This document shows positions 5,034 to 42,570 of a DNA stretch of 53,225 nt, piece after piece. The position numbers and the translations under genes were made by a program. The notes beneath the pieces were generated by a model, which worked only from the letters and a program-made list of their open reading frames with translations, had not been told where the DNA came from and ran no database searches. Source of the stretch: a virus; IMG/VR virus record IMGVR_UViG_3300047157_000005, positions 1 through 53,225 of that record. One strand, given 5' to 3'. How positions within the stretch are numbered: the stretch's first letter is position 1; every line of letters begins with the position of its first letter.

Positions 5034-5403
5034 CTGGTATCCTTGTTAAATCTATGACGTGTTTCTGTTCGACAGTGGTTGCAACCTCTTGCTTGTCCAC
5101 CCACCCAGCTCTGTTCTTCAGGAAGAAGATCATCGCTGTATTGTCCCTATCAATCGTGGCCTTTTCAAAGAGAGCGTTAGTCACGGCATCTATGCCACGA
5201 GCCTGACCTCTTTTTATAGCATCCGAAAATTCCGAATTTTCTGACTGATGAAGCATGAAAGTTGACAGTGAAACGCCTAGCATTCCAGACGCCTGTTCTT
5301 TCGTTAATCCCTTGGTCATAAGATTTTCTACGTTAAGCAAAACTTCATCGGTGATCTCGAACTTCGGTCTGCCGACTGGATTTTTAGTTTTGACATCTGA
5401 CAT
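4930..5403 (-). CDS. terS: Terminase small subunit
   Basis: DNA-recognition subunit of the packaging terminase. The 157-residue protein has a helix-turn-helix near the N-terminus (about 20-55, GLTKEQASGMLGVSLSTF), a basic stretch (AIKRGQARGIDAV), then a helical segment and an acidic tail, the usual TerS layout. It is the first gene of the minus-strand late unit, and transcription must start in the repeat-rich region upstream (5404-5820). Its identity is supported by the HTH, size and the adjacent terL. Confidence 0.85.
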   Translation of the reverse strand: MSDVKTKNPVGRPKFEITDEVLLNVENLMTKGLTKEQASGMLGVSLSTFMLHQSENSEFSDAIKRGQARGIDAVTNALFEKATIDRDNTAMIFFLKNRAGWVDKQEVATTVEQKHVIDLTRIPDDQLKSIEDAFSRTDVGTGESGEVSQIIEGIYEG

Positions 5404-5619
5404 AGTGTTGACCTTTCTTTTCAGTGGTTAGCTGTATTTAACAAAATATAGCCTAACTCTTAAAAAAAGAAAAGTATCAGATCAAAAATCTATTTATGTC
5501 ATTTATGGCATATTTATGGCATATACCAAATCTGCCATAATTCATCTACTCTATACTCCTTATTTATATAGTTATTATATATATATATTATTATTATTAT
5601 TATTTATGTCATACTGTCA

Positions 5620-5661
5620 TACCCCCCCCTTCTCCCCCACAGGTATAGGTATGGGGGGGTA
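5620..5661. repeat. C-run/G-run inverted repeat
   Basis: TACCCCCCC at 5620-5628 can pair with GGGGGGGTA at 5653-5661. Two further G-runs follow (5669-5674 and 5683-5687). The cluster of four runs of five or more G or C in AT-rich DNA stands out and could form a hairpin or a G-quadruplex on the plus strand downstream. Confidence 0.5.
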
Positions 5662-5763
5662 AAAAATAGGGGGGATCTATTAGGGGGTATCTGCCATATA
5701 TGCCAAAAATGCCATAAATCACTTTTGCCCTTATTTTATTGATAAAAAGGTCAAAAAATAGTA

Positions 5764-5797
5764 TGCCATAAATACTGCCATAAATACTGCCATAAAT
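5764..5797 (+). repeat. Three tandem TGCCATAAAT iterons, 12-bp period
   Basis: Perfect copies of TGCCATAAAT start at 5764, 5776 and 5788, joined by AC. They lie 23 nt or more before the start codon at 5821, in the promoter zone of the early operon. Regular 12-bp spacing, with inverted copies on the far side of the gap (5501-5521), is what one expects of an iteron origin or a cooperative repressor operator. Confidence 0.75.
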
Positions 5798-5820
5798 AAA
5801 AACGTGAGAAAGGAACAGAT

Positions 5821-6177
5821 ATGAGTACAGTTTACGTTGTGACACGACCCAGAGAAAATAAGTTTGGGTGGACTCCAGATTTATCTGACGCCACGAAGTA
5901 TGGTAAGTTACAGGTTATCTTTGAGCCTGACGAGAAACCACAGTTTAATCCGAGCCGAGCTATAAACATTGCGAGAGTTATCCTTCAGTCGTTTAGTGAA
6001 GATGACTATCTACTGTGGGCTGGTGGAGGAGATCCAGTGGCTGTGATGATTGCATGTATGGTAGCCTCTGAAAGCTGTGATATTGTGAACGTCCTGAGAT
6101 GGGAGCGCAACTTCAACGAGGGTGAGCGAGATCGCCGTAAGGGTTGGTACTTACCAGTTAAGATGGATATGTCTTAA
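5821..6177 (+). CDS. Conserved-looking early protein with WAGGGDPV motif
   Basis: First gene of the plus-strand early operon; AGAAAGGA lies upstream of the ATG. The 118-residue soluble protein has TRPRENKFGWTPDLSDATKYG near the N-terminus, LLWAGGGDPVAVMIA in the middle and VLRWERNFNEGERD near the end. I recall similar small proteins of unknown function from marine phages. No catalytic motif is clear. Its leading position under the repeat region suggests an early host-takeover or regulatory role, which is inference. Confidence 0.75.
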   Translation: MSTVYVVTRPRENKFGWTPDLSDATKYGKLQVIFEPDEKPQFNPSRAINIARVILQSFSEDDYLLWAGGGDPVAVMIACMVASESCDIVNVLRWERNFNEGERDRRKGWYLPVKMDMS

Positions 6178-6206
6178 ACTTTTTTTATTTTTATTCACTT
6201 TGCCTA

Positions 6207-6245
6207 TTGCTATACTATATACAGTATGCTACATAATGTATGTAG
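6207..6245 (+). promoter_or_regulatory. Promoter copy 1 with overlapping palindromic operator
   Basis: -35 TTGCTA (6207-6212), a 17-bp spacer and -10 TACATA (6230-6235). A perfect palindrome CTACATA-ATG-TATGTAG covers the -10 (6229-6245), and a second one, TACT-N6-AGTA, sits in the spacer (6213-6226). Two other copies occur at 19129-19167 and, on the minus strand, 41562-41601. It drives the gene at 6267. Confidence 0.75.
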
Positions 6246-6266
6246 AAAGAGAAAAGGAATACAAAA

Positions 6267-10341: not shown

Positions 10342-12639
10342 TTAATTTATTGGTGGTGAGAAGTAAGCAAACCTTGGCCTACCCTTTGCACCTTCGTTTT
10401 GATTTCTACACTCAATACCTCTGTCAGTTTGCAGTGCATCAAGAATGTCAGCGCGTCTGCGCCTATCCATATTTGCAAAAGAAGATACACTTCTGGCTAA
10501 CTCACGTTCAGTTAAGCCAGTTAACCCAGCCTTTTCTATTCGTGCGTAAACTGCCTTACATGCCGCTTCAAATGGTCCTTCTGACATATTAGACCTGAAC
10601 ATCTCGATAGTTTGGATTGCATAGTGATCTACATAATCGATAGACCATTGCATTGCATCTGAACCTATTTCGTCCTGACCCATTGACCGAGCGATAATCA
10701 AAGACAAACGCATGGCAATCTCACGGCTACGATTGTACATAGCCTCCAGACCTGTACCTGTTTCCTTCTTAATTGCATTAACCAATCTCTGCTCGTACTC
10801 ACGCAGAAGATTTTCAGCTTCTTGAGTAAATGCAACTTCTAGTGGATGTGGTGGCATGTCATGACTGTTGCCAGTATCTAAGTCACCTTCATTTGCATTG
10901 GCATGATCCTTTGCCCAAGTAGCAAGTCGATCAGATATTGTTGACCTACGTTTCTTCTGGGACATCTGCACACCAATTTCAGACTTCACAATTATAAAAC
11001 GATTGAGCAATCCAGATGCAACATCACCTCCACCAATAGCTTGCATAAACTCTGATGGTGTAGACATTCCAACTAATGTGAGAGACGGACGCTTCACAAC
11101 CTTCTCCAACTTCTCTGCGTCTGCCGATTTCATTGTATTGGTTGCGTAACCTTGTTGCCTTAAAGTTCCGTCTTGGCGTCCAAAGCATTCCATGATTGCA
11201 GTTATTGCGTCAGCTTTATGTTGCATACCCTTTGCAGATGCCGCCTTTAACTGTCGCCCAAGTTCGTCAATTACAGATACATGCGTTGGCTTTTTAGTTA
11301 GCGTAGATAAAACACCCGCACTCGAAGTATAGCCAGCAGGCCCTATTAATTCATCTAGCCCAGACTGCTCAAGTAATTCCTCGATGACAGTTTTCGTGTG
11401 TTCCTTACCAGATCCTGTCTCACCAATATTTAAGAAGTATAAGCTAGAGAAGTTTCTCTGATCAGTAACCCACCGACGACCCATTGCAACTGAACCAAAT
11501 GCAATTGCACATTGCACAGCAAATTGAGGTTGGGGTTTGATTGCAGATACAGTGTAGTAATTTACAACATCCTGAAGAACGCCAGGCACACTTAGTAAAT
11601 GTTCAGGTATTTCACCTAGTGGTGTGTCTACTTCTTTTGATTTTGTAGACATAATATTCTTGGCGACTCTTGCGCCATGCTCGATTGCTTCCTTGTCTAA
11701 ATCATACTCTTCGTCTTGCGTCACGTTTAATATTTGAGCGGCTTCTTTGACCGCCTTCTGGACGTTACCCATGTGTTCGAACTGTAGCCACAATTCAAAT
11801 GCATCAAATGTATGTGCATTATCAAATGGATCAGATGCGTGGTGGCTGTAGGCTCTGCCATCATCAAATAATTTTACACCAGCTAATCCTGACGTGCTGT
11901 TGGGAGATAAATATCTACCCTTGGACGTTGGCTTGTATCCATACTGAACCATCAAAGTGTGCATGTCATGTGCATCATTGAATGCATCTATCACTGAAGT
12001 GCTATCACTTTTAGGTCTTGGCTTTCGTGTTGGCTGAAACTCTGCCTTCTTTTTCCAAGGGCATATGTCCTGAAGCTGTGGACGAAACTTATCCCACTCA
12101 CGCCACAATGTTAAAATTTGTGGTGGTAGTTCTGGGATGCCATCGAAGATTGATCTCCCTGCCCATTCATATGGACGACCTGTATCTGGATGGATACTTG
12201 GAGGAAGTACATCCTGAACAGAGCCTGCGCGCAATTCAAATACCACTTCGGTCTTGCGTGGATCTCCCTCGACAGGCCACGATATCTTGTGCGTGATTAA
12301 ATCAGGTGGAGCTTTAAAGATCAACTTACCACGATTTTCACGTCCGATAATCTGTGGTGCAGATTGCATCAACTCAGAAAAATCTATTCCCAGATGTTCA
12401 AAAATTATTTTTGTATGCTCGACATTATCTATGTCGATAGCACAAGTTCCAGATGCACCATGCAGTAATCCTACATTGTGATTTGGGTTCTGCTCATAAT
12501 ATAGTCTAGCCTGATCTGGATCGGACAATGCCTTCTCTGGTTGTTGCCAACCAAATCTCGTTGGCCCTTTGGAGCCAGCGGGGATTGTTACCAGATACCA
12601 ACTCAGCTTTGAACAGTAATCTTCTATCTGAAAGCTCAT
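10342..12639 (-). CDS. Bifunctional primase-polymerase/DUF3987-type helicase
   Basis: The central replication protein, 765 residues. The N-terminal prim-pol domain carries the metal-binding D69-x-D71 (AIDIDN) and H150 (PPSIHPDTGRPYEW). A linking domain (242-272, RYLSPNSTSGLAGVKLFDDG, then AYSHH) is typical of phage primases. The C-terminal ATPase has Walker A GETGSGK (406-412) and Walker B VSVIDE (454-459), followed by a helical/winged end (GLTELERELARSVSSFA-like). It should make primers and unwind DNA at the fork. It overlaps the upstream HTH gene by ATGA. No DNA polymerase lies nearby. Confidence 0.88.
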   Translation of the reverse strand: MSFQIEDYCSKLSWYLVTIPAGSKGPTRFGWQQPEKALSDPDQARLYYEQNPNHNVGLLHGASGTCAIDIDNVEHTKIIFEHLGIDFSELMQSAPQIIGRENRGKLIFKAPPDLITHKISWPVEGDPRKTEVVFELRAGSVQDVLPPSIHPDTGRPYEWAGRSIFDGIPELPPQILTLWREWDKFRPQLQDICPWKKKAEFQPTRKPRPKSDSTSVIDAFNDAHDMHTLMVQYGYKPTSKGRYLSPNSTSGLAGVKLFDDGRAYSHHASDPFDNAHTFDAFELWLQFEHMGNVQKAVKEAAQILNVTQDEEYDLDKEAIEHGARVAKNIMSTKSKEVDTPLGEIPEHLLSVPGVLQDVVNYYTVSAIKPQPQFAVQCAIAFGSVAMGRRWVTDQRNFSSLYFLNIGETGSGKEHTKTVIEELLEQSGLDELIGPAGYTSSAGVLSTLTKKPTHVSVIDELGRQLKAASAKGMQHKADAITAIMECFGRQDGTLRQQGYATNTMKSADAEKLEKVVKRPSLTLVGMSTPSEFMQAIGGGDVASGLLNRFIIVKSEIGVQMSQKKRRSTISDRLATWAKDHANANEGDLDTGNSHDMPPHPLEVAFTQEAENLLREYEQRLVNAIKKETGTGLEAMYNRSREIAMRLSLIIARSMGQDEIGSDAMQWSIDYVDHYAIQTIEMFRSNMSEGPFEAACKAVYARIEKAGLTGLTERELARSVSSFANMDRRRRADILDALQTDRGIECRNQNEGAKGRPRFAYFSPPIN

Positions 12640-13487: not shown

Positions 13488-13557
13488 AATATTAGACGAG
13501 GTATTTGCCTCTGTCTTTAAAGAGAAATGGGAGGATAGAGAATATAAATGGCTATAA
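13471..13557 (+). CDS. Micro-protein, 28 aa
   Basis: The ATG at 13471 has an excellent ribosome site (GAAGGAG, 6-7 nt). It encodes an amphipathic acidic peptide (MEEINKILDEVFASVFKEKW) and overlaps both neighbours (17 nt upstream, 10 nt downstream). It may be a genuine micro-protein or a leader that couples translation to the Sak4-like gene. Confidence 0.5.
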   Translation: MEEINKILDEVFASVFKEKWEDREYKWL

Positions 13558-14303
13558 ATTTAAAATCACTATCTAAGCCATCAGGTCAGCGACCAATAAT
13601 CGCCACCTTATTTGGTGAAGGCGGAATGGGTAAAACTACTCTAGCCGCTATGTTCCCAAAGCCAGTCTTTATCAGAACTGAAGATGGAACTGCATCACTT
13701 ATGGGTAATAAGGAAGTTAGTCTGTTCCCATTGGCAACATCATCAAATGATGTCTTAGATGCAATTGAAGCTCTAGCCACTGACAAGCATGAGTTTAAGA
13801 CATTGGTTATCGATAGCATTACGCAATTGGCAACAATGATCGAAAGCGAAATTGTAGCGGCTGATCCTAAAGCTAAATCTATAAACCAAGCGGGGGGCGG
13901 ATATGGAGCAGGGTATGGAACTGCATCTGAGAAGCACCGCCAGATCAGAGAGTGGGCAGGATCTCTTGCCTATGAAACTGGAATGAATGTGGTCTTCATT
14001 GGACATGCCGACACTGAGACGTTGGACTTGCCTGATCTAGATCCATACGCAAGGTACTGCGTGAGGATGCATAAGAAGAGCATTCCACATTACACTGATA
14101 ATGTTGACCTAGTTGGATTAATCCGACTGAAGACATTTACTCGCGGAGATGGCGATAAGAAGCGCGCCATTTCTACTGGTGAACGTGAGATACTGTGCTT
14201 TCCACAGGCATCATCAGTCACCAAAAATCGGTTCAACATTACTGAACCACTGCCATTTACATTTGATGGCGGCAATCCATTTTCACAATTTGTAGCAGAG
14301 TAG
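13548..14303 (+). CDS. Sak4-like RecA-fold ATPase
   Basis: A single-domain RecA-like ATPase of the phage AAA_24/Sak4 group, which promotes annealing or strand exchange in phage recombination. Walker A is GEGGMGKT (residues 23-30) and Walker B TLVIDSIT (85-92). RTEDGT (43-48) and the conserved VVFIGHAD segment follow the family pattern. At 251 residues it has the usual family length and lacks the extra domains of RecA. It is followed by a DUF669 protein, its usual partner. Confidence 0.88.
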   Translation: MAINLKSLSKPSGQRPIIATLFGEGGMGKTTLAAMFPKPVFIRTEDGTASLMGNKEVSLFPLATSSNDVLDAIEALATDKHEFKTLVIDSITQLATMIESEIVAADPKAKSINQAGGGYGAGYGTASEKHRQIREWAGSLAYETGMNVVFIGHADTETLDLPDLDPYARYCVRMHKKSIPHYTDNVDLVGLIRLKTFTRGDGDKKRAISTGEREILCFPQASSVTKNRFNITEPLPFTFDGGNPFSQFVAE

Positions 14304-14809: not shown

Positions 14810-14832
14810 TTACTAGATAGATGGAGAAGCCA

Positions 14833-15774
14833 ATGAACCTTGAACAATACATGACGCCAGAAACAGTTCGCCTCATTTACGAGAAATATCAACAGAAACG
14901 AAAGAATGAGCATCGACCTCACTTGGGTGGATCTCAAATTGGCAATGAATGTAGTCGCGCACTTTGGTATCAGTTTAGACACGCATGGACGCCAGACTTC
15001 TCTGGGAGAATACTTCGATTGTTTGAAACAGGTGATCGTGAAGAAGATCGTGTTGTATCTAACCTAAGAGATATCGGTGTAGAGATTTGGGAAGTAGACC
15101 CAGAAACTGGCAAGCAAGTTAGATTTACAGAATGTGGTGGTCACTTCGCATTGTCTCTGGATGGCGTAGGTCTTGGTTTTCCTGAAAGCAGTAAGCCACA
15201 CACACTTGAATTTAAAACAATGAACACCAGAAGTTTTAAAGATATCGAGAAGAAGGGATTGCAGAAAAGCAAGCCTATCTATTGGGCGCAATGCCAGATT
15301 GGTATGCACTTAGCTGAATTAGAGAACTGCTACTTCTTTGCAGTTTGTAAGGAGACTGACGCTATTTATGCAGAACGTCTAAAGCTAGATAAGTCTGAGG
15401 CCATGCAACTTATAGAGAAGGCAAATAAAATTATATTTGCAGAGACGCCACCATCCAAATTAAGTGAGGATGCAAGTTTTTGGCAATGCAAGTTCTGTCC
15501 GTATTGGGCAGTATGTCATGGATGCAAAATACCAGAAGTTAGCTGTAGAACGTGTAGCCATGTGACCCCAGAGAAAGATGGGACTTGGAGTTGCGCCAAA
15601 GGAAAGCCCACAGTTACTTGTGATGAACATCTATACATCCCACAAATCATGCCAAAAGATTTGGTGGTGCATGATGCTGGTGATGACTTTGTTGAATACC
15701 AAGATCAAGACACTGGTGAGATCATTAAGAACAAGGAGAACAGCCAAGCTATCTTTGATGGTAGGATGGTGTAA
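14833..15774 (+). CDS. Cas4/RecB-like PD-(D/E)XK exonuclease with Fe-S type cysteines
   Basis: Start at 14833: GGAG lies 6 nt upstream, while the ATG at 14821 contains that GGAG and has no site of its own. The nuclease core shows D110 (LSLDGVG) and E126-x-K128 (LEFKTM). Cys40 (IGNECSR) plus C219, C222 and C228 (WQCKFCPYWAVC) match the four cysteines that hold an iron-sulfur cluster in Cas4 and AddB. A second Cys cluster follows (CRTCSHV, then CAKGKP). At 313 residues this is a typical phage recombination exonuclease that would supply ends to the Sak4/DUF669 pair. Its stop overlaps the next start by one base. Confidence 0.85.
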   Translation: MNLEQYMTPETVRLIYEKYQQKRKNEHRPHLGGSQIGNECSRALWYQFRHAWTPDFSGRILRLFETGDREEDRVVSNLRDIGVEIWEVDPETGKQVRFTECGGHFALSLDGVGLGFPESSKPHTLEFKTMNTRSFKDIEKKGLQKSKPIYWAQCQIGMHLAELENCYFFAVCKETDAIYAERLKLDKSEAMQLIEKANKIIFAETPPSKLSEDASFWQCKFCPYWAVCHGCKIPEVSCRTCSHVTPEKDGTWSCAKGKPTVTCDEHLYIPQIMPKDLVVHDAGDDFVEYQDQDTGEIIKNKENSQAIFDGRMV

Positions 15775-19108: not shown

Positions 19109-19128
19109 AAACAAACAAAACTTTCCCC

Positions 19129-19167
19129 TTGATATACTACATTTAGTATGCTATATAATGTATGTAG
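19129..19167 (+). promoter_or_regulatory. Promoter copy 2 with overlapping palindromic operator
   Basis: -35 TTGATA (19129-19134), a 17-bp spacer, -10 TATATA (19152-19157). The near-palindrome CTATATA-ATG-TATGTAG (19151-19167, one mismatch) covers the -10, and TACT-N6-AGTA lies in the spacer. It matches copies at 6207-6245 and 41562-41601. It proves that the ATG at 19148 cannot be the start of the gene that follows. Confidence 0.75.
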
Positions 19168-19186
19168 AGAGAAAAGGAGATTTTCT

Positions 19187-19582
19187 ATGAGTGACTTTTA
19201 CTATAATGATGGCGGACGTGTCGAATCAGGCCGAAGAGGTATAGCTGGTGATTGTGCAGTTCGCGCAATGGCTATAGCTTTAGAGCTAGACTACGATGCT
19301 TGCTATAAAGAAATAGCACAAGCCAATAAAGACAATGGACGCGCTAAGTCTGTTCGTCATGGCGTTATGAAAGACGTGTATGGCGCAGTTTTAAAGCGTC
19401 ATGGATGGGTCTGGCATTCAGCACCAAAATTTAAAGGCGTAAAAGCTCGCGCTGAAGATATGCCTGATGGTGTTGTTATTGCCAGACAAGCAAGGCACTT
19501 CGTTGCTGTTATTGATGGTGCTGTTCACGACATATGGAACTGCTCTCACAAAATGGTCTACGGCTATTGGGCTAAAGTATAA
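19187..19582 (+). CDS. Cysteine peptidase-like protein
   Basis: Start at 19187 (AAAAGGAGA 6 nt upstream); the in-frame ATG at 19148 lies in the promoter. The 131 residues show a papain-like order: C23 (AGDCAVRAMAIAL), H104 (ARHFVAVIDG) and D115 (VHDIWNCS). This resembles a group of small phage proteins with a DCxxRA motif. It may cleave a host or phage protein or act as a transglutaminase-like enzyme; activity is unproven. The gene forms a one-gene unit with its own promoter and a 3' hairpin. Confidence 0.68.
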   Translation: MSDFYYNDGGRVESGRRGIAGDCAVRAMAIALELDYDACYKEIAQANKDNGRAKSVRHGVMKDVYGAVLKRHGWVWHSAPKFKGVKARAEDMPDGVVIARQARHFVAVIDGAVHDIWNCSHKMVYGYWAKV

Positions 19583-38092: not shown

Positions 38093-39220
38093 TCACTGCC
38101 AAGTACCTTCGCCCCATCCATCTATACCCCAAGATGTTTCTATCTGCGTTCCTACTGTTCCAACACCGCCAGTTGAACCTACACCAGTTGGACGTGGAAG
38201 AGTATCAGCTTGCCAAGCACCATCGCCCCATGCGCCAATTCCCCAACCTAATCCGTTAGTACCAGATAGAATACTAACTGTTCCTGTACCTCCAGATCCG
38301 CCAACTCCTGTCTCAATTGCTTCAGATATTGAAACTTCTTCACCAACAGCACCTGTTGAACCTATACCTGAAATACCTGTAACAAGCAATTGAATGTTAC
38401 CATCACCAGAAATTCCGAAGCCTTCTGACTCGCCATCTCCAGAAACACCTGTTTGACCTAATTCTAATTCAGGAACTTCATTACCGATTGCGCCTGTACC
38501 ACCAACCCCATCTTCACCTATTTCTGTTTCAAAGGTTTCATTACCTACTGCACCTGTGCCACCAACGCCTGTCTCAGTTAATTCTAATTCAGGTACTTCA
38601 GAACCAACTGCACCTGTTCCAGCAACTCCAGCTGGGTCTACATCTGTTGTGATAAAGAGAGACTCATTACCTATTGCACCTGTACCTGATGCGCCACTTG
38701 CAATTGCATAATTTTCAATTAATTCAGAACCTATGGCTCCTATACTTGATACGCCACTTGGAACTGCATCATTTTGAATAATTTCAGAACCTATGGCTCC
38801 TGTACCAGATGTTCCGCTAACAGATACATCTTCATTATCAGATACATATGCATCTCCAACATTAGCCGCTCCAGATACCCCAGATACACTAAATATACGA
38901 TCATGGTGTATATCAACATAACCAGCTTCAGCTATAGACGGAACTCCAACAGGTGGCCTTGCCCTTGGATCTATTGTCCAATCTTGTGTAAATCCAATAT
39001 AGACAACAACATTTTCTGGATCGTTGTCTGGCCTACCATTAAATAGGGCAGTTGCGTCCACGATATTTTTAGCAGGAGTAAGTTGTGGGTGTTTTGGTTC
39101 CCAATCTTCAGGTGAAACACGCAAGCCATCCCAAGTCGTCTTCAGTTTGGTATACTTAACCCGAAGACCACTTCTGTCGCTTATCGCGTAGGATTTTTTT
39201 CCTCTTGCGTATTTCCCCAT
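38093..39220 (-). CDS. Gly-rich repeat structural protein, 375 aa
   Basis: The ordered N-terminal domain (YTKLKTTWDGLRVSPEDWEP, VVVYIGFTQDW) is followed by about ten repeats of 20-30 residues built on GVSGTGAIGSE-like cores, and an end with WGIGAWGDGAWQ and WGIDGWGEGTWQ. Probably a fibrous or decorating virion protein. It is coupled to the gp4-like gene by a one-base overlap. Confidence 0.7.
   Translation of the reverse strand: MGKYARGKKSYAISDRSGLRVKYTKLKTTWDGLRVSPEDWEPKHPQLTPAKNIVDATALFNGRPDNDPENVVVYIGFTQDWTIDPRARPPVGVPSIAEAGYVDIHHDRIFSVSGVSGAANVGDAYVSDNEDVSVSGTSGTGAIGSEIIQNDAVPSGVSSIGAIGSELIENYAIASGASGTGAIGNESLFITTDVDPAGVAGTGAVGSEVPELELTETGVGGTGAVGNETFETEIGEDGVGGTGAIGNEVPELELGQTGVSGDGESEGFGISGDGNIQLLVTGISGIGSTGAVGEEVSISEAIETGVGGSGGTGTVSILSGTNGLGWGIGAWGDGAWQADTLPRPTGVGSTGGVGTVGTQIETSWGIDGWGEGTWQ
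38280..38870 (-). repeat. Degenerate GTGAIGSE-coding repeats
   Basis: About ten in-frame units of 60-90 bp whose products share G-S/G-T/G-A-I/V-G-S/N-E followed by an acidic stretch. The bases around GGAGGTACAGGTGC-like cores (minus strand) are best conserved. Confidence 0.6.
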
Positions 39221-40374: not shown

Positions 40375-40845
40375 TTATGGACGAACAGGAGAGTTGTACG
40401 CTTGAGCATATAAAATCGTAATAACTGCAACACCAGCAGTAGTTCCTGCACTGCTTGTCACTGTAAGTTTAAGATCGGCAGTTCCTGTGTCAGCCCACTC
40501 ACCTGTACCACCACCTTGTGTAGTTACAGTTTTAAGACCAGCAGTCGTGCCAGATGCCAATGTATTTAAGATTGTTGTTGCGCCACCAACTGTATCACCA
40601 ACACTCAAGTTTGTTGTTGTGTTAGCCGCAGTAGACATATCAACTTTACAATCAATAATTTTAGATTTTGCTGGAATAACCATGTTGGTTGCACCTGCCG
40701 CAATAGCTCCATTTGATAGATCCATTGTGTGCGTTTGCATCATGACAACATAACCGACATTTGCTATGTCGCTTCCAACTGTTGTGCCTGTTGTGTTTTT
40801 GATAGTACCAGCCCGCACTGGGCCTGAGAATGTAGTTGTACCCAT
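40375..40845 (-). CDS. Structural protein, 156 aa
   Basis: N-terminus MGTTTFSGPVRAGTIKNTTG, then a Thr/Ala/Gly-rich beta protein (MVIPAKSKIIDCKVDMSTAA) ending AYNSPVRP. The SGPVRAGT start is familiar from marine phage structural proteins. First gene after the terminator at 40934, preceded by AGGAGA and two CTGTCAGGG repeats, so it likely starts a transcription unit. Confidence 0.7.
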   Translation of the reverse strand: MGTTTFSGPVRAGTIKNTTGTTVGSDIANVGYVVMMQTHTMDLSNGAIAAGATNMVIPAKSKIIDCKVDMSTAANTTTNLSVGDTVGGATTILNTLASGTTAGLKTVTTQGGGTGEWADTGTADLKLTVTSSAGTTAGVAVITILYAQAYNSPVRP

Positions 40846-40933: not shown

Positions 40934-40953
40934 AGGCGATCCGAAGACCGCCT
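40934..40953 (-). terminator. UUCG-loop terminator after OB-fold-like gene
   Basis: On the minus strand AGGCGGTC-TTCG-GATCGCCT forms a stem with one G-T pair and a stable TTCG loop, followed by TCTTTCTTTTT. It ends the single-gene unit 40966-41538. Confidence 0.8.
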
Positions 40954-40965
40954 TTGTTTTGTTGA

Positions 40966-41538
40966 TTACCAATCTTTGCCATTGATTTTTACTTTGGTAG
41001 GGCGTTGAATGATAGTCTGCCTTACACCTTCTCGAACACCATGATCTTTGACTTTAGCCATACACTCAACTGCATTGCCTTTGCCCCACTCATTAGAACC
41101 TTTGTATATCACAATATTCTCGTCAGCATCGCGGCAGATGTTGATGTAGCTTGTACCCCAGTTTCCACCATCCAACTCAACAACGTGCTTAACTGTAATA
41201 GTGAAAGCCTGACGCTCTCCCACTGTGCCGACAAACTCACACTTGCCATCTCTAGTAGCCCACTCAGCCTTTTGAGCCGCACGCTTGTCAATCATCTTGA
41301 CCATAGCGTTACGCATATTGTCAGTTGGCTTACCAAACTTATTAATACCTCTTTTAACGGCTGATAAAAAACCTTCACCATTTGAATCTTCAAATTCAAC
41401 AAAATCAATAATTTCTTGAGCGCGATCATCAGACGCGATCCAGTTTTTACGCTTTGTATTAGCGGCATTAGCCATTCTGTAATTGCGAATACTACTGTAA
41501 TAGTTAGCTTCGCCTGGGTGATTATCTATATATGCCAT
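40966..41538 (-). CDS. OB-fold-like protein, 190 aa, independently transcribed
   Basis: The N-terminal half is basic and helical (MANAANTKRKNWIASDDRAQ, VKRGINKFGKP). The C-terminal 90 residues have alternating strands (CEFVGTVGERQAFTITVKHV, TSYINICRDADENIVIYKGS, VECMAKVKDHGVREGVRQTI) like OB-fold domains in phage replication proteins. It has promoter copy 3 upstream and a terminator downstream, so it is switched with the early promoters although it lies among capsid and tail genes. It may bind single-stranded DNA or RNA; function is inference. Confidence 0.68.
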   Translation of the reverse strand: MAYIDNHPGEANYYSSIRNYRMANAANTKRKNWIASDDRAQEIIDFVEFEDSNGEGFLSAVKRGINKFGKPTDNMRNAMVKMIDKRAAQKAEWATRDGKCEFVGTVGERQAFTITVKHVVELDGGNWGTSYINICRDADENIVIYKGSNEWGKGNAVECMAKVKDHGVREGVRQTIIQRPTKVKINGKDW

Positions 41539-41561
41539 TTTATAATTCCTTTATTTCTCTA

Positions 41562-41601
41562 CCTATACACAATATATAGTACACTAAATAGAGTAATGCA
41601 A
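41562..41601 (-). promoter_or_regulatory. Promoter copy 3 with overlapping palindromic operator
   Basis: Minus strand: -35 TTGCAT (41601-41596), 17-bp spacer beginning TACT, -10 TATATA (41578-41573). CTATATA-TTG-TGTATAG (41579-41563, one mismatch) overlaps the -10. The leader GGTAGAGAAATAAAGGAATT resembles those of copies 1 and 2. It drives the gene at 41538. Confidence 0.72.
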
Positions 41602-41611
41602 GGGGGTAAGT

Positions 41612-41641
41612 AAAAAAAAGAGGCGACCCTAAGACCGCCTC
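41612..41641 (-). terminator. Terminator after major capsid gene
   Basis: On the minus strand GAGGCG pairs with CGCCTC around TAG-containing loop bases, followed by eight T (41619-41612). Its sequence is similar to the terminator at 40934, possibly a duplicated element. Confidence 0.8.
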
Positions 41642-41670: not shown

Positions 41671-42570
41671 TTACGCGCCTTCTGATCCGAAGATACCACG
41701 CCAGTCAGTGAACCCGAAAGAATAACGCTCACGCACTTTGTAGCGCACGTTACCAGTTTCGAAATCACCTTCCATGCCTTTTTTCATAGGCGAGCGTTGG
41801 AACATTTTCAGTCCATCTGGAACATCAGTCTTGATGAAGAATGCATCCGCATCTGTTAGACGACGCATCACATGATAACCTTGTGGTAAGTAACCACCAG
41901 ATTTAATCGCATTGATGTCGTTGTCCGCAGTACCAGTGCGAAGTTGTGATTCCAACAAACGCTCTGCAACAAAAGTGTAAGCTGTTGGGATAACCAACTG
42001 CGTACCTTGAGCGGCAATTCTAAGACCACGATCATCTTTCATATCCGCTATTTGGATAAGAATTGACTCTAGTGATGTCTCAGACAAGTCAGCCGCTGTT
42101 GCTAACGTGTTAGACTGGTTACCATTTTGCGTTGGGTGAGCTGTACTTAAAAGAGTAGTACCATCTCCACCATTTGCAGTAGTTGCGTTATTTAAAACAT
42201 TTGCCGCTTTGATTTCCTTAGTGGAAGCCATTGAGCGTGCAAGTGCTTTTGTATAACGAGAAGCAATTGAGCCATACTGACCATCTTCTTCAGCTTCCTC
42301 AGTAATTGAGAACGCTAAAGCAACTGTTTCATGTTGGTAACGTGCAGTCCATTGTTGACCAGCATCATCATAAGATACTGCTGAACCTTCAGACTTTGTT
42401 GGTGCAGTACCGAAACCAGATAGAAGTACATCTTCTTCAAACGCTTTTTGTGAAGTGTTTGATGAGAAGACTGCTTCATATTCAGCAGGGTAGCTGTCAT
42501 ATTCGAGGCCAAACAAGGTGTTTAGACCTGGCTCAAGCATTTTAGCAAAACTTGCTCTATTCATAGCCAT
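41671..42570 (-). CDS. Major capsid protein
   Basis: 299 residues, the expected size and place (after scaffold and decoration genes). N-terminus MNRASFAKMLEPGLNTLFGL, then an HK97-like run of beta and helix with TARYQHETVALAFSITEEAE, SRYTKALARSMASTKEIKAA, GGDGTTLLSTAHPT, RTGTADNDINAIKSGGYLPQ and the end KVRERYSFGFTDWRGIFG. The FxxEDGxYGxxxSRYTKALARS region is typical of marine podo/sipho coat proteins. Ended by a strong terminator. The gene is intact. Confidence 0.85.
   Translation of the reverse strand: MAMNRASFAKMLEPGLNTLFGLEYDSYPAEYEAVFSSNTSQKAFEEDVLLSGFGTAPTKSEGSAVSYDDAGQQWTARYQHETVALAFSITEEAEEDGQYGSIASRYTKALARSMASTKEIKAANVLNNATTANGGDGTTLLSTAHPTQNGNQSNTLATAADLSETSLESILIQIADMKDDRGLRIAAQGTQLVIPTAYTFVAERLLESQLRTGTADNDINAIKSGGYLPQGYHVMRRLTDADAFFIKTDVPDGLKMFQRSPMKKGMEGDFETGNVRYKVRERYSFGFTDWRGIFGSEGA

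Follow-up and report, generated by a model that had tools for sequence, protein, structure and literature searches.

Behind the major capsid protein (MCP) gene of the phage analysed here, a cassette built as an early gene (terminator, early promoter, gene, terminator) occupies what would be a recurrently used slot of CRP-901-type marine phages, where cassettes appear to be exchanged by recombination at the terminator hairpins. We assign this reading a probability of roughly 0.8. The window, i.e. the whole stretch of DNA that was analysed, is a virus record of 53,225 bases from a marine, CRP-901-type phage related to Roseobacter phages. Five features are documented at the level of sequence: the architecture of the cassette, empty and filled alleles of the slot, junctions located in the hairpins, varied cargo, and copies of cargo genes in the early regions of relatives. 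Because near relatives hold either nothing or a different gene at this place, the slot appears to be a docking site that can be reused by early-type genes.

The cassette is found on the minus strand behind the MCP gene in the order terminator T1, promoter, gene for a 190-aa protein, terminator T2 (Table 1), and its gene is present in a single copy in the window. All parts that the first-pass annotation had listed, namely two terminators, a third copy of a promoter and one gene, were recovered at the positions of Table 1. The same annotation had placed the cassette between capsid and tail genes. This holds true on the MCP side; the gene on the other side has no known function, and in phages CRP-901 and CRP-902 a 'tail adaptor' gene is located two genes beyond it. 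The open reading frame of the cassette is under purifying selection, with dN/dS values of 0.13-0.33 in seven comparisons.

Table 1. Features of the 53,225-base window that are referred to in the text.
Feature	Position	Strand	Evidence or remark
MCP gene, upstream neighbour of the slot	41671..42570	-	Pfam Phage_capsid_4 (2e-14) and Mu-like_gpT (1.5e-10); phrog_371, major head protein (1.2e-22)
Terminator T1, left hairpin copy, left cassette boundary	41620..41641	-	hairpin scan, folding, simulation
Early-type promoter, copy 3	41568..41603	-	similarity to copies 1 and 2; kept in relatives
Putative ribosome-binding site AAAGGA	41547..41552	-	read from sequence
Cassette gene (190 aa); predicted N-terminal helices (10-98) and C-terminal OB-fold domain (101-188)	40966..41538	-	phrog_27218 (1.3e-30), predicted structure, dN/dS
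Terminator T2, right hairpin copy; empty slots have the same flank to the right of their single terminator	40934..40953	-	
Following late gene (156 aa), borders the slot on the right	40375..40845	-	function not assigned
Early promoter copy 1, before ORF 6267	6200..6253	+	repeat comparison
Copy 2 of the early promoter, located at the early/late junction	19122..19175	+	repeat comparison
Gene driven by copy 2	19187..19582	+	homologue in the slot of L051 behind the MCP gene
Sak4-like single-strand annealing protein, candidate for recombining short homologies	13548..14303	+	phrog_124 (3.9e-47)
Cas4-domain exonuclease, may act together with the annealing protein	14821..15774	+	phrog_1990 (4.2e-95)

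T1 consists of the stem GAGGCGGTC, the loop TTAG and the stem GGTCGCCTC followed by eight T residues, and T2 of the stem AGGCGGTC, the loop TTCG and the stem GATCGCCT. The stems of the two hairpins are nearly the same, as had been noted before, and each hairpin folds with an energy of -12.1 kcal/mol. Strict criteria (stem of at least 8 pairs, at least 5 G-C pairs, at least 5 T in 8) were applied to both strands of the whole window, and T1 and T2 were the sole terminators found. First-order Markov simulations (n = 200) yielded a mean of 0.1 such terminators, and two were reached in 1.5% of them.

Promoter copy 3 follows the T1 hairpin at a distance of 18 bases. Its hexamers TTGCAT (41601-41596) and TATATA (41578-41573) are separated by a spacer of 17 bases, and the order of a T1-type hairpin followed by a promoter is repeated in the filled slots of relatives, among which the copy 3 promoter is conserved. 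When a 44-mer of copy 3 was compared with the two other early-type promoters of the window, which are 81% alike, 32 of 44 positions matched in copy 2 and 29 of 44 in copy 1; elsewhere on both strands the number of matches was at most 25. The best 44-mer match in 200 simulations was 28, and none of them (0/200) reached 29. A general sigma-70 consensus scan did not list the copy 3 site because TTGCAT and TATATA fall below the thresholds of the scan. Support for the promoter therefore comes from its likeness to the early copies and from its conservation in relatives, not from a sigma-70 score. Searches of the window with copy 3, allowing up to three mismatches, returned the site itself only, and a stricter gapped pattern gave no match, since the three copies differ at more positions. 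In CRP-901, four near-identical promoter units precede gp24, gp25, gp27 and gp29, three of them directly behind a hairpin. The early promoters of distant lineages are unlike one another, so that a single early regulator common to the group cannot be derived from them.

A dyad, perhaps an operator, is present between the promoter hexamers, with the form GTGACA-NN-TGTCA in CRP-901 (L126; sites at 12026, 12656, 13275 and 14288) and ATACT-N6-AGTAT in the window (sites at 6200 and 19122). It stands out (p about 0.06 or less) in window copies 1 and 2, in the four CRP-901 promoters and in those of loci L031 and L044. An operator common to the early promoters was rejected, as the dyad did not exceed shuffled sequences in the other 13 of 21 promoters tested.

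Some relatives carry homologues of the cassette gene in their early regions. The homologue of CRP-901 (66%; gp29) and that of CRP-902 (64%) lie towards the end of the early operon on the plus strand; the post-MCP slot of both phages is empty and carries one hairpin, whereas the slot of the window is filled. A search with the gene returned 44 loci. In 20 of them the gene lies in the slot or next to late genes at its borders, in 12 it lies next to early or junction markers, in 11 it could not be placed, and in L020, part of contig G005, it was placed at the early/late junction. G005 is a 53-kb contig in which the OB-fold gene is located in the early region and the slot is empty. Some other cargo behaves in the same manner. 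The gene driven by copy 2, a homologue of which occupies the slot of L051, also has a homologue in L031, where it adjoins the OB-fold gene within the early region. Three small genes that are found in the L193 slot adjoin the OB-fold gene in L037, and one of the three does so in L039 as well. At the early/late junction, the window and its close relative G001 have copy 2 and its upstream flank in common, with different genes behind. For eight of the ten cargo families described below, the loci compared gave no copy in an early region. The earlier proposal that the gene belongs to the early regulon despite its location among late genes thus agrees with two observations, the resemblance of copy 3 to two other window promoters and the presence of the same gene, behind an early-type promoter, in the early operon of relatives including CRP-901 and CRP-902. 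Early expression of the cassette gene as such is what we infer from them.

Three minor observations may be added. The listed ATG start of the gene behind copy 2 (19148) falls within the promoter, at the end of the -10 region, and homology begins at 19187. A second slot near 45 kb, where cargo homologues are found in L055, L077, L078 and L239, was considered and discarded, as no hairpin-promoter unit was seen in the stretches of L078 and L055 that were inspected. Extra DNA near the tail genes of L004 and L009 reads as coding, and no hairpin-promoter unit was seen in it.

The window phage shares its early/late gene layout with CRP-901 and CRP-902, to which its MCP is 89-90% identical (Prim-Pol 81% and helicase 66% for CRP-901). 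These two are the nearest isolates, followed by DSL-LC04, 023Pt_psg01 and the pelagiphages HTVC027P and HTVC023P. The first-pass annotation had called the cassette moron-like. Morons of lambdoid phages are single genes among late genes, each with a promoter and a terminator of its own, and are defined with reference to expression in the prophage. Taken strictly, such a reading would make the cassette a foreign gene that is expressed independently of the lytic programme and benefits a lysogen. The cassette is indeed a single self-contained gene among late genes, has its own promoter and terminators, and is present or absent among near relatives, and to this extent the label is loosely right. 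However, the phage appears to be lytic: no integrase was found among 35 window proteins scanned, and CRP-901 and CRP-902 are described as strictly lytic, devoid of lysogeny genes and dependent on host transcription in their report (PMC10149686), the main text of which does not contain the words 'promoter' and 'terminator'. Moreover, one scan of bacterial genomes returned no homologue of the cassette gene, the promoter belongs to the early type of the phage itself, and the normal home of the gene is the phage early operon. We regard a strict moron as improbable; the promoter-early stem-loops discussed below come closer.

To describe the states of the slot, 159 distinct loci were classified, of which 96 had an MCP identity of at least 80%, 62 one of 55-80%, and one less than 55%; MCP matches that stopped short of residue 290 had been dropped before counting, as had loci that duplicated the slot surroundings of another. 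At an MCP identity of at least 80%, 70 slots were empty, 24 were filled, and two (L193 and L194) were filled without a right edge being found; at 55-80%, 51 were empty, one was filled, two were unclear and eight were too short, all of which are counts that overstate the share of filled slots and of the hairpin because the gene and the hairpin themselves had served as search queries. In the former group two terminators were present in 23 of 24 filled slots vs none of 70 empty ones; the remaining filled slot (L011) contains N in its hairpins. The sole filled slot at 55-80% (L221) has a single terminator. Using the capsid search alone, eight filled and 59 empty slots were obtained at an MCP identity of at least 80%, and a GCGGTC-type hairpin was present in seven of the eight filled vs seven of the 59 empty slots (Fisher p 3e-5, ignoring descent). 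All filled alleles are from metagenome contigs. A GCGGTC-type hairpin was also seen behind the MCP gene in 45 of 51 empty slots at 55-80%, a biased share given that this set was mostly found by that hairpin.

An empty slot that allows close comparison is that of L046. Its MCP gene is 99% identical in DNA to that of the window, T2 with the leader is 97% and the next gene 96% identical, and the cassette is absent: the MCP stop codon is followed by one hairpin and then by the next gene. The joint can be placed within the hairpin because the left flank of the single hairpin is that of T1 and its right flank that of T2. The nearest kin of L046 on the MCP tree hold the cassette, and its sequence is as expected from recombination between T1 and T2. 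The suggestion to look for presence or absence of the cassette in relatives hence led to a clean empty site, and to other genes at the same spot elsewhere. Eleven pairs of filled and empty slots were compared in the same way. Left of the first hairpin, ten of the 11 pairs matched at 30-39 of 31-40 bases, with L051/L052 (22/47) as the exception; right of the last hairpin, nine of 11 matched at 80-89 of 89-91 bases, and the values of the remaining pairs were 73/89 and 68/90. With the flanks paired otherwise, no more than 24-44% of the bases matched. The two hairpin copies of a slot differ in stem ends and T-tract, and in L057 and L051 the two hairpins within the slot are unlike each other.

Ten unrelated cargo families were found in the slot at loci with an MCP identity of at least 80%. 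In addition to the OB-fold gene (190 aa), they comprise genes of 131, 133, 90-92, 89, 199, 79 and 98 aa, a winged-helix gene (HTH_39) of 89 aa and a DUF6011 gene of 283 aa, plus small ORFs. On an MCP tree of 91 rows (five of the 96 rows at 80% or above were left out), the empty or filled state changes at least 13 times, 11 of these changes being forced by well-supported (starred) branches; presence of the OB-fold gene alone needs four changes. Within one lineage whose MCPs are 95.7-96.9% identical, L018 holds the OB-fold gene, L051 holds another gene, and L050 and L052 are empty. The gene of L021 is a mosaic, with an N-terminal half 93% and a C-terminal half 73% identical to the window and flanks of 98-100%; judged by sequence, it is an allele that was replaced via recombination inside the gene. 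These data also bear on the view that the cassette is a transposon or another site-specific mobile element which duplicated the terminator as its target site. Although the insert is flanked by two copies of an 18-20-base sequence, one copy of which is also found at the empty site, no recombinase gene is part of the cassette, the same boundaries are common to all ten unrelated cargo families, the hairpin copies within a slot differ as described, and the L021 mosaic lies inside the gene, as in homologous recombination, which makes such an element very unlikely. As a separate observation, CACTAACGCCGTTAGCGTTACAAAAA, or nearly the same stretch, recurs in different cassettes of L073, L091, L092 and L205; in three of these it directly precedes the right hairpin and could offer extra homology for exchange.

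The preferred reading, an early-gene cassette recombining at hairpins, would work as follows. The resident state of the slot would be one strong terminator behind the MCP gene. A cassette with hairpins of the same sequence at its ends would be gained or lost by recombination inside the hairpin, so that a filled slot would have two terminators and an empty slot one. Homology for gain and loss would be provided by the hairpin sequence, which the empty site shares with the two cassette ends, and the phage's own Sak4-like annealing protein together with the Cas4-type exonuclease could recombine such short stretches. Given efficient termination, T1 would keep late capsid transcripts out of the cassette, the cassette promoter would allow early reading of the gene by host RNA polymerase, and T2 would end the early transcript ahead of the late tail-side genes; with these three elements a gene would keep its early timing wherever it lands. 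The cargo of the window would be an OB-fold protein, the gene for which relatives usually carry at the end of the early operon. That the gene is instead an ordinary late gene read through from the MCP gene, with the hairpins as attenuators or mRNA-stability elements and a fortuitous promoter, is very unlikely: it lies on the same strand as the late genes, and T1 might leak since the late genes downstream need to be transcribed somehow, but the promoter is kept across the group and resembles two promoters of the early region, and the place of the gene in relatives is the early operon.

The structure of the 190-aa protein was predicted with AlphaFold2 from an alignment of 33 sequences (mean pLDDT 84.4, pTM 0.55). 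The model has helices at residues 10-98 and five strands at 109-185, and residues 101-188 are predicted to form an OB-type beta-barrel. Among the best 50 PDB matches obtained with Foldseek (E 0.009-0.09), most are OB domains, mainly those of RPA, SSB, telomere-end-binding proteins and PriB. VIA-align gave Z values of up to 8.3 to archaeal RPA domains for residues 102-188 (rmsd 2.6, 78-81 residues); a Z near 8 may reflect the common barrel arrangement and not kinship. The OB-like fold that had been proposed from the sequence is hence supported by the prediction. Superantigens and other OB-barrel proteins in the structure list were set aside, as they have the barrel alone in common. A Pfam search with the protein yielded no family, all matching PHROGs are of unknown function, and a sequence search of the PDB returned no relative. 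Many relatives are found in Klebsiella, Vibrio and other phages, with mainly the C-terminal part being covered, and one of them (H30) bears the submitters' annotation 'replication factor'. The cassette protein is probably, as a guess from the modelled fold, an accessory early protein that binds nucleic acids.

Several known systems resemble the cassette in part. In phage T7, the terminator T-phi follows gene 10; the slot likewise has a strong terminator directly behind the major capsid gene and differs in that this terminator is also the site where cassettes come and go. In promoter-early stem-loops (PeSLs), the stem-loop terminates transcription, and mini-circles are excised. Such elements were reportedly described by Arbiol et al. 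2010 and Comeau et al. 2014. PeSLs of T4-type phages consist of a stem-loop terminator and an early promoter located between genes, including late ones, and gene gain, loss and replacement are bounded by the motifs, as set out in papers that cite this work (PMC4503421, PMC3950731). By its sequence features, the cassette appears to have in common with PeSLs both a hairpin terminator joined to an early-type promoter and a turnover of genes (gained, lost or replaced) whose junctions lie in the motif. In contrast to the system described there, a single fixed slot behind the MCP gene is used here, the junction homology is the terminator hairpin, and the right boundary is a terminator without promoter. 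The window phage is not T4-like, with a gpT-type capsid (Phage_capsid_4), Prim-Pol replication and a size of about 53 kb. Since neither the capsid type nor the nearest isolates are of T4 type, we consider the cassette PeSL-like in its working and do not class it as a T4 PeSL. In the haloarchaeal tailed virus HGTV-1, TATA-box/inverted-repeat motifs precede many genes and were proposed to aid shuffling (PMC3950731). The combination of promoter and inverted repeat and the proposed role in shuffling are alike; the promoter of HGTV-1 is of archaeal type, and the passage describing its motifs mentions no empty or filled alleles. A literature search of partial coverage, and thus weak evidence of absence, returned no report of such cassettes in CRP-901-type phages.

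A broader view may be put forward tentatively. The slot might be a standing docking site in a large group of lytic marine phages, in which host-takeover early genes move as terminator-bounded modules via hairpin-sized homology and the Sak4/exonuclease pair, perhaps in the form of circles of about 690 bp. The origin of such a PeSL-like system would be independent of T4-type phages. We regard this extension as possible rather than probable. Phage genomes are called modular, yet their joints are seldom observed. In this case, alleles with and without an insert, at up to 99% identity, resolve the joint to the hairpin, at one fixed place and with ten cargo families. How a gene can enter a late region without disturbing the timing of either becomes testable in this way, and viral contigs can be searched for small early genes in the region between the capsid stop codon and the next structural gene.

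Two further repeat-bearing regions were observed in the window. Positions 5400-5830, between the terminase and the early genes, contain repeated TTTATGGCA-type motifs and long C and G runs and possibly represent an origin or regulatory region. Imperfect 60-base repeats are present inside a structural gene at 38439-38843.
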